Notes under the pieces: generated by a model | What the model was told of the DNA's origin: nothing | Databases searched by the model: none | The model's input: only the letters and a program-made list of their open reading frames with translations | Position numbers and translations under genes: made by a program | In this document: positions 6,290 to 6,994 of the stretch, piece by piece | How the letters are laid out: each line of letters opens with the position of its first letter | Numbering within the stretch: position 1 is the stretch's first letter | Assembly: GCA_004297665.1 (NCBI GenBank) | Contig: SCUP01000206.1 | Span: 1-10,499, forward strand | Direction: 5' to 3' | Length of the DNA: 10,499 nt | Source of the DNA: Nitrosarchaeum sp. | GTDB taxonomy: Archaea > Thermoproteota > Nitrososphaeria > Nitrososphaerales > Nitrosopumilaceae

Positions 6290-6330
6290 AAATTTAGTCC
6301 CGACTAATTTTGTCTAGCTTTAAATAATAT
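6290..6330 (+). promoter_or_regulatory. Ferredoxin promoter module, copy 1
   Basis: A 41-bp segment identical to 6954-6994. It contains the palindrome TTAGTCCCGACTAA (6294-6307; 6-bp arms around CC, and 9 of 10 arm positions match if each arm is lengthened by four bases) followed 11 bases later by the TATA box TTTAAATA (6319-6326), 22 bases before the ATG. The palindrome lies directly upstream of the BRE/TATA, a position typical of activator sites in archaea, though repression is possible. It also sits in the gap shared with the divergent aIF6 gene. Confidence 0.85.
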
Positions 6331-6348
6331 CTGAGCGAAAGTTCTTCT

Positions 6349-6900
6349 ATGCCAATAGCAGAAAATTTCCCAGAAGGTCTCAAACCAATTGGAAAAATTA
6401 GTACTACAGATGGACAATTTCACTGGGTCTGGGGTCCTGGTAAAACAAAAAACACAGATGGCTCACAAGCCGAAGTGTTTGCAGACAAAGATGTTGTAGC
6501 AGCTTATGCAGCTAGGGGAGAAAAACAAGTTCCACTAGGGATTAGCGGTACAATGGTTGCAGTTGACTGGGATTCTTGTGTTGCAGATGGCGCATGTATT
6601 GAAGCATGTCCAGTTCAAGTATTTCAATGGTACAGAACTGAAAAAGATATTCCAAATACTGAAGCGATAAATGCAACTTTTGCTGGAACTGGAAGTTCGG
6701 TTAAAGAAGAAAGAAAAGATTTCACCGACAAAGCAGATCCAATTCGAGAACATGATTGTATCTGGTGTATGGCATGCGTATCAGTTTGTCCTCCACAAGC
6801 TATCAAAGTTGATCAATCAAACTTGGAAGCACATGAAAAGGCAGCAGGAACTTTTGTAAAGATTGTAGCAGGTACTGCCAATCCACACGCACACGATTAA
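6349..6900 (+). CDS. Zinc-type 7Fe ferredoxin, paralogue 1
   Basis: 183 residues; a small soluble electron carrier of the type known from Sulfolobus, extended at both ends and between the cluster motifs. Cluster motif one is C77-x5-C83-x3-C87-P with Asp80 where a fourth Cys would be, which in the Sulfolobus protein gives a [3Fe-4S] cluster. Motif two is C137-x2-C140-x2-C143-x3-C147-P, a full [4Fe-4S] site. The PLGISGT loop carries Ser66 where the Sulfolobus zinc site has His. Only one N-terminal His (His25, FHWVWG) is left, while Asp130, before the second motif, is kept, so zinc binding is probably lost. The C-terminus ends NPHAHD, as in paralogue 2. The ATG is 22 bases after a strong TATA box, so the mRNA is probably leaderless. 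The physiological partner is unknown. Confidence 0.93.
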
Positions 6901-6920
6901 TTTATTTAATTTTATTTATT
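6900..6920 (+). terminator. T-rich tract after ferredoxin 1
   Basis: AT-rich, T-dominated run directly after the stop codon without a stem-loop. It is a plausible archaeal oligo-T terminator that separates the two ferredoxin transcripts, consistent with the second gene having its own promoter. Confidence 0.4.
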
Positions 6921-6953
6921 CCCTAAAACATACTGTGAATATTAGATCGAGTT

Positions 6954-6994
6954 AAATTTAGTCCCGACTAATTTTGTCTAGCTTTAAATAATAT
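6954..6994 (+). promoter_or_regulatory. Ferredoxin promoter module, copy 2
   Basis: Identical over 41 bp to 6290-6330. The palindrome TTAGTCCCGACTAA is at 6958-6971 and the TATA box TTTAAATA at 6983-6990, 21 bases before the ATG at 7012. The flanks on both sides differ from copy 1, so conservation is confined to operator plus core promoter. This points to co-regulation of both ferredoxins. Confidence 0.85.

Follow-up and report, generated by a model that had tools for sequence, protein, structure and literature searches.

The two tandem ferredoxin genes of a Nitrosarchaeum-like ammonia oxidizer share a 41-bp promoter module which, with a probability of roughly 60%, we take to be a ferredoxin-specific operator joined to a core promoter. 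The operator would be recognized by a dimeric winged-helix regulator, most likely an activator, the mRNA would be leaderless, and the arrangement would serve both paralogues in Nitrosarchaeum and often only paralogue B in Nitrosopumilus. The window, that is, the whole stretch of 10,499 nucleotides analyzed here, is one entire contig, and the nearest named locus to it belongs to a Nitrosarchaeum MAG.

An identical promoter module precedes two diverged ferredoxin genes

Ferredoxin A (6349..6900, + strand, 183 aa) and its tandem paralogue ferredoxin B (7012..7554, + strand, 180 aa) both match Pfam Fer4 families. Protein A is related to zinc-containing archaeal ferredoxins (1xer, E 2.8e-20), and its homology to the proteins of this type from Sulfolobus and Acidianus (1xer, 2vkr) covers both cluster motifs, although those proteins have 103 residues and are shorter than A and B. 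Ferredoxin B was placed with the zinc-type ferredoxins through its 59% identity to A. When A and B are aligned, 105 of 176 residues are identical, and in the coding sequences 69.1% of the aligned bases and 24 of 43 fourfold sites are the same; the coding regions have thus drifted, as the initial annotation of this DNA had stated. The divergent neighbor (5555..6271, - strand) encodes the translation factor aIF6 (PF01912), whose true start may lie inside the annotated ORF, at M18.

The two copies of the module, at positions 6290..6330 and 6954..6994 (both + strand), are identical over 41 bp while the neighboring bases differ on both sides, exactly as had been annotated; the repeat reaches 45 bp when one mismatch is allowed. 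No exact repeat of the window is longer; in 100 dinucleotide shuffles the longest one averaged 13.66 and never exceeded 16. The module is composed of TTAGT-N4-ACTAA, TTTTGTCTAG and TTTAAATAATAT. Upstream of gene A, the palindrome TTAGTCCCGACTAA (6294..6307, + strand), centered 48.5 nt before the ATG, is followed by the conserved 11-nt linker TTTTGTCTAGC (6308..6318, + strand), which contains a TCTAG element at the BRE position, and then by the TATA box TTTAAATA (6319..6326, + strand), which begins 30 nt before the ATG at 6349. Upstream of gene B the same palindrome, linker and TATA box occupy 6958..6971 (centered 47.5 nt before the ATG), 6972..6982 and 6983..6990 of the + strand, and here the TATA box begins 29 nt before the ATG at 7012.

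Two details of the initial annotation had to be corrected. It had described a palindrome with 6-bp arms just upstream of the BRE/TATA; the palindrome is there, but in relatives no more than 5 bp of each arm stay unchanged or almost unchanged, and position six is Y on the left and R on the right in 66 of 77 distinct promoters taken from the best 80 of 286 named loci. Similarly, the identity, said to stop near the TATA box, does end close by, yet it runs through the box (6319-6326) and 4 nt beyond it. The palindrome form TTAGTCNNGACTAA is found nowhere else in the window's own assembly, which is 85.92% complete.

The distance from an archaeal TATA box to the transcript start is usually about 25–27 nt. 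As the TATA boxes begin 29–30 nt before the ATG, the ferredoxin transcripts are predicted to start at or next to the ATG and to be leaderless. An RNA hairpin or terminator in place of a DNA operator is not favored, RNA folding being weak (z -0.99, -0.56, and -0.28).

Comparison within the genus distinguishes constrained from free positions

Eighteen Nitrosarchaeum genomes were searched. The module is present at 18/18 A promoters and 17/17 B promoters of the genus, in some of them with 1–3 changes in the linker. When a 33-nt pattern was searched with at most 3 mismatches, it was found at exactly those 35 places, in 17 of the 18 genomes, and its reversed control gave 0 matches. In the remaining genome, G010, no close ferredoxin match was found, and in G012 gene A stands alone, at a contig end. 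An extra, 77%-identical ferredoxin copy in G011 (C12, L318) lacks the module.

The promoters of A and B were then compared within the 17 genus loci that have A as well as B. No difference was found, within or between A and B, in the two 5-bp arms or in the 10-nt TATA block; the linker has few differences and the four core bases have many. In the 30 nt upstream of the module, A and B disagree at about 20 positions. The four central bases are unlike between A and B in most relatives: they differ, or nearly so, in 13 of the 17 loci and agree fully only in L003, L013, and L015. The core of the window's A, CCCG, is common to the 99%-identical A of G011 (L004), the core of its B is common to the 99%-identical B of G016 (L008), and the partner genes in G011 and G016 have other cores. 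With arms and TATA block invariant, the linker nearly so and the cores free, the 41-bp identity comes down to about 37 constrained positions and four free ones that agree here.

The initial annotation had offered selection or recent conversion as the cause of the identity. Selection is upheld by the conservation in genus and family, whereas recent conversion is not needed, the window's cores being those of the G011 A and G016 B genes. That recent gene conversion or duplication made the copies identical appears to us very improbable. A and B cores from one genome do differ slightly less than cores from different genomes (1.76 vs 2.17 differences of 4, permutation p 0.028), and this slight similarity leaves some room for occasional conversion of core bases; however, the upstream flanks show no same-genome effect (p 0.53), the A and B cores are unlike or nearly so in most pairs, the two genes are deeply separated in the tree, and the conservation in relatives refutes conversion or duplication as the main cause.

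Across the Nitrosopumilaceae the palindrome is kept mainly at copy B

The family sample consisted of 200 Nitrosopumilaceae genomes, many of them incomplete. The 33-nt pattern, again with at most 3 mismatches, matches in 125 of the 200 (reversed control, 0) and has no match in 75. Outside the genus there are about 110 matches; the 61 that were checked all lie at ferredoxins, 58 of them 21–31 nt before one of the ferredoxin matches listed. The remaining three of the 61 are those of G018, G056:C89, and G135, the last two being at ferredoxin B genes. Five further matches, in G066, G170, G161, G045, and G056:C70, lie at ferredoxins too, the neighboring match in G056:C70 covering only residues 1-73.

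The expectation that the palindrome is kept upstream of orthologous ferredoxins was confirmed, at all 35 genus promoters and, among the best 80 of 286 named loci, at 51 of 52 anchored copy B promoters, which have perfect arms. By eye, the B palindrome is present also in L070, L071, and L082, where the start is misassigned, and in L119; the B promoter of L089 has 8/10 arm bases. Copy A was represented in the best 80 of 286 loci by 85 rows, which take in a few distant or third copies. Its arms are perfect in 34 rows and nine of ten bases are kept in 4; among the 43 A rows without a palindrome, 32 still have a YCTAR element before the TATA box. The distance between palindrome and TATA box, measured in the same best 80 of 286 loci, is identical in 89/89 palindromes, of A and B together, that have at least 9 of 10 arm bases.

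A quickly built tree, in which some forks stay open and three distant rows carry a long-branch warning, unites the B rows in a single clade; 54 of its 55 rows have the palindrome. The set containing the window's A (59 rows) includes 21 with the palindrome, namely 13/13 Nitrosarchaeum-group rows and 8/46 others. In this tree the A/B split precedes the genus, so that the identity of the two modules is no strain-level accident, the possibility of a very recent duplication having been raised in the initial annotation. The single ferredoxin of Nitrosotenuis-type loci (L103, L106, L134, L137, L138) also has the palindrome; we therefore consider it probably ancestral and lost from copy A in many Nitrosopumilus, although the counts alone cannot separate gain from loss.

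Six extra, distant ferredoxin copies of other genera were opened. Four of them (L164, L169, L173, L174) match 9 or all 10 of the arm bases, with the spacing unchanged, and L171 and L172 are without a palindrome. At the main ferredoxin of g18 the palindromes are degenerate, with 8 and 7 of 10 arm bases. The main ferredoxin promoter lacks the palindrome in g5 (G021, G042) and in several g9 genomes (G025, G044, G059, G072), and the 33-nt pattern has no match elsewhere in those genomes. The palindrome is dispensable for a ferredoxin promoter in places, as the A rows with a YCTAR element but no palindrome show. This counts against the operator reading, as do the g5 and g9 promoters and the extra copies L171, L172, and L318.

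TATA-linked palindromes in the genus lie almost only at ferredoxin genes

None of the 35 ferredoxin loci or promoters read outside the Nitrosopumilaceae has the palindrome at this position. A loose match (TTAGTGCTTCCTAA) lies 63 nt before an extra ferredoxin copy in L209, with no TTTAAATA behind it, and another about 190 nt upstream of the ferredoxin in L185.

Of the 18 genus genomes, 16 contain TCTAGNTTTAAATAA, with 32 occurrences in all, 31 of them at ferredoxins (reversed control, 1). The relaxed pattern, TTAGK-N4-MCTAA followed by TTTAAA 5–14 nt on, gives 40 matches (reversed control, 14), of which 35 are at ferredoxins and 5 are scattered in four genomes; the site of L055 is counted among the relaxed matches because, on the opposite strand, it is followed by TTTTAAA at 12 nt. 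TATA-linked sites in these genomes are thus almost only at ferredoxins, and looser sites of the same putative regulator would escape the two scans. The initial annotation had proposed that a regulon could be read out by searching for the palindrome. Such a read-out gives essentially the ferredoxin genes, and no wider regulon emerged from it. The bare palindrome TTAGTYNNRACTAA was also rejected as a regulon marker, its 2–4 sites per genome not exceeding the reversed control (1–9). At the 12 non-ferredoxin palindrome sites that were opened (L050-L061), TCTAG before a TATA box is absent. Neither an exact match to TTAGTNNNNACTAATTTTGTCTAG nor any relative of the proteins turned up in viral contigs.

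The concentration of TCTAGNTTTAAATAA at ferredoxins (31/32) also speaks for a reading with no separate regulator, in which the entire module is an extended promoter for one TFB paralogue. Multiple TFBs occur in this phylum, and the TCTAG that precedes TTTAAATAA shows good conservation, persisting in many palindrome-free A promoters of the best 80 of 286 loci. We nevertheless find this reading unlikely. The dyad lies 12–25 nt before the TATA box, and TFB is not known to contact a dyad symmetry there; moreover, palindrome and TCTAG vary independently.

Two of the other palindromes in the genus genomes are recurrent. TTAGTTAAAACTAA is found about 40 nt before a small ORF in L052, L054, L056, L060, and L061, followed by conserved sequence with no TCTAG-TATA block; we take the small ORF to resemble SepF. 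TTAGTTTAGACTAA recurs in four genus genomes (L050, L058, L059, L042), and the ORF beside it in L050, L058, and L059 presumably resembles the CrcB fluoride channel.

Proposed mechanism and candidate regulators

Under the operator reading, a dimeric winged-helix regulator would bind TTAGT-N4-ACTAA, a site roughly one turn of the helix ahead of the TATA box, and, held at this fixed position, would most likely activate transcription by assisting TBP/TFB assembly at TTTAAATA, from which a leaderless ferredoxin mRNA would be produced. In Nitrosarchaeum both tandem paralogues would be under this one regulator; in many Nitrosopumilus, paralogue B alone would still be. The palindromic sequence suggests the binding of a protein dimer. 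Activation is favored by analogy: according to an excerpt of PMC2995911, the dimer sites of Ptr2, LysM, and Ss-LrpB directly precede the BRE, their position being tightly constrained, and the present site is likewise symmetric and at a rigid distance upstream of the BRE/TATA. A repressor acting from the same distance is possible. The signal sensed may be redox, iron or energy, as had been suggested in the initial annotation.

The Ptr2 case further suggests an Lrp/AsnC protein as the regulator. In the excerpt of PMC2995911, Ptr2 targets fdxA, rb2, and rbr, and its site in Methanocaldococcus jannaschii (fdxA, rb2) parallels ours in being a palindrome just upstream of the BRE/TATA, at a constrained position and with a ferredoxin target. 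The Lrp RAM domain gave 5–27 matches per genome in 17 genomes, among the matches listed. One Lrp group looked promising there, being present in 7/8 genomes with the palindrome, 0/5 without it and 1/2 with a degenerate site, among the matches listed. In the 200-genome sample, however, this group failed to track the site and was rejected: it is missing from palindrome-bearing G022, G023, G031, and G035 (97–99% complete) and from every g19 genome, and it is present where no site matched, in G095, G118, G126, and several g18 genomes. In this respect the system may differ from that of Ptr2, and we assume that the Ptr2 palindrome also differs from the ferredoxin palindrome in sequence. Lrp sites usually have an A+T-rich centre, whereas the four core bases here are often G or C. 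An Lrp/AsnC regulator is, in our judgment, rather improbable.

Over the 200 genomes, the best E-value of the rejected group (L262 and relatives) is two-peaked; g19, g6, g5, and much of g9 seem to lack the group, which occurs in most g1, g12, and g17 genomes of the sample. In one genome (L321, G005:C16), a gene belonging to this group has TTAGTTCATACTAA 3 nt upstream of its ATG. This site is one of the five scattered relaxed matches and is possibly there by chance.

A DtxR/MntR-family metalloregulator, sitting on a one-dimer DtxR-type box and tying ferredoxin synthesis to iron or manganese, is a candidate compatible with the operator reading, and a tentative one. The palindrome and the IdeR/DtxR one-dimer box have a 5-4-5 layout in common, with 5-bp arms, a 4-bp spacer and TTAG/CTAA cores; the 14-bp IdeR consensus TTAGG-N4-CCTAA differs from the palindrome at base 1 of each repeat. 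As described in an excerpt of PMC8464063, the box has been redefined as TTAGGNNNNCCTAA, Gln43 of IdeR is reasoned to be able to contact any position-1 base, and a C1-to-T change is tolerated by IdeR. The DtxR base is even found in natural variants, TTAGG in L162, L163, L164, and L173 and in the degenerate L154 and L155, and CCTAA in L167. The DtxR dimerization domain has 1–3 matches in each of the 17 genomes searched (17/17). In a by-eye alignment, Pro39 and Gln43 of the IdeR recognition helix are kept in the class I proteins of most genomes, G042 having Ser for Pro; for the class II proteins, MntR is the closest among solved structures.

Several observations weigh against such a protein. In the window, and in nearly every relative, base 1 of each repeat (TTAGT, ACTAA) is not that of the DtxR consensus, and other variants at this base exist (TTAGC in L161, GCTAA in G051). 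DtxR proteins are found equally in palindrome-free genomes (G025, G042, G059, G072), so that their presence was discarded as a discriminator between genomes with and without the palindrome. Across 16 DtxR loci, each about 1 kb long, TTAGK-N4-MCTAA was matched with at most one mismatch at a single site, which falls just within the L310 reading frame; hence no self-regulation by this box was seen. Given the DtxR proteins of palindrome-free genomes and the different base 1, membership in the DtxR box family is not claimed. The element differs from the IdeR/DtxR box also in lying upstream of an archaeal TATA box at ferredoxin genes. A more elaborate proposal would be that a metal-sensing DtxR/MntR-type protein of shifted specificity (TTAGT-N4-ACTAA) activates ferredoxin genes alone, at one exact TBP/TFB distance throughout the family, and that the tandem ferredoxins divided roles, the site being lost in A and kept in B. 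We consider this combination rather improbable.

To our knowledge, hardly any specific regulators or operators have been described in ammonia-oxidizing archaea, and among the open-licence papers listed no title or abstract opening reports this element. It may work like known archaeal upstream activating sites; what is unusual about it is the near-exclusive target, the family-wide conservation and the divergence between tandem paralogues. It looks like a candidate docking site of a regulator with very few other targets. Short, exactly placed and with few targets, the element is testable in vitro, and it would mark which of the two ferredoxins is controlled in which lineage.

Other features of the ferredoxin loci

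In the window and 14 further loci, we assigned the ferredoxin neighbors, by assumption, to histidyl-tRNA synthetase and the replication factor C small subunit. Most of these loci keep the order histidyl-tRNA synthetase, aIF6 (opposite strand), ferredoxin(s), replication factor C small subunit (opposite strand), GINS. By eye, no conspicuous regulator gene was seen near the ferredoxins among ORFs of at least 60 aa in the 14 loci. A short ORF of the window (3373-3549, - strand) is, we presume, similar to the C-terminal end of a transposase and is possibly a transposase remnant.

Nitrososphaerales-side ferredoxins (f3; L185, L187, L189, L190) have an upstream block of their own, ACACATGRTTTATATA followed by GATCA(A/G)ATA(C/T)CACTGC, which is unlike the Nitrosopumilaceae module. 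In Nitrosotalea-type L135, L140, and L141 (about position 1500), a second, more distant ferredoxin next to the main one has TTGTATACAC or TTGTACACAC directly before TTTAAATAAG.

The first cluster motif of the window's ferredoxins reads CVADGAC in A and CIAAGSC in B, and the Asp of the Sulfolobus ferredoxin motif CIADGSC is replaced by Ala in 4 aligned B rows. This difference between A and B may confer different cluster properties.
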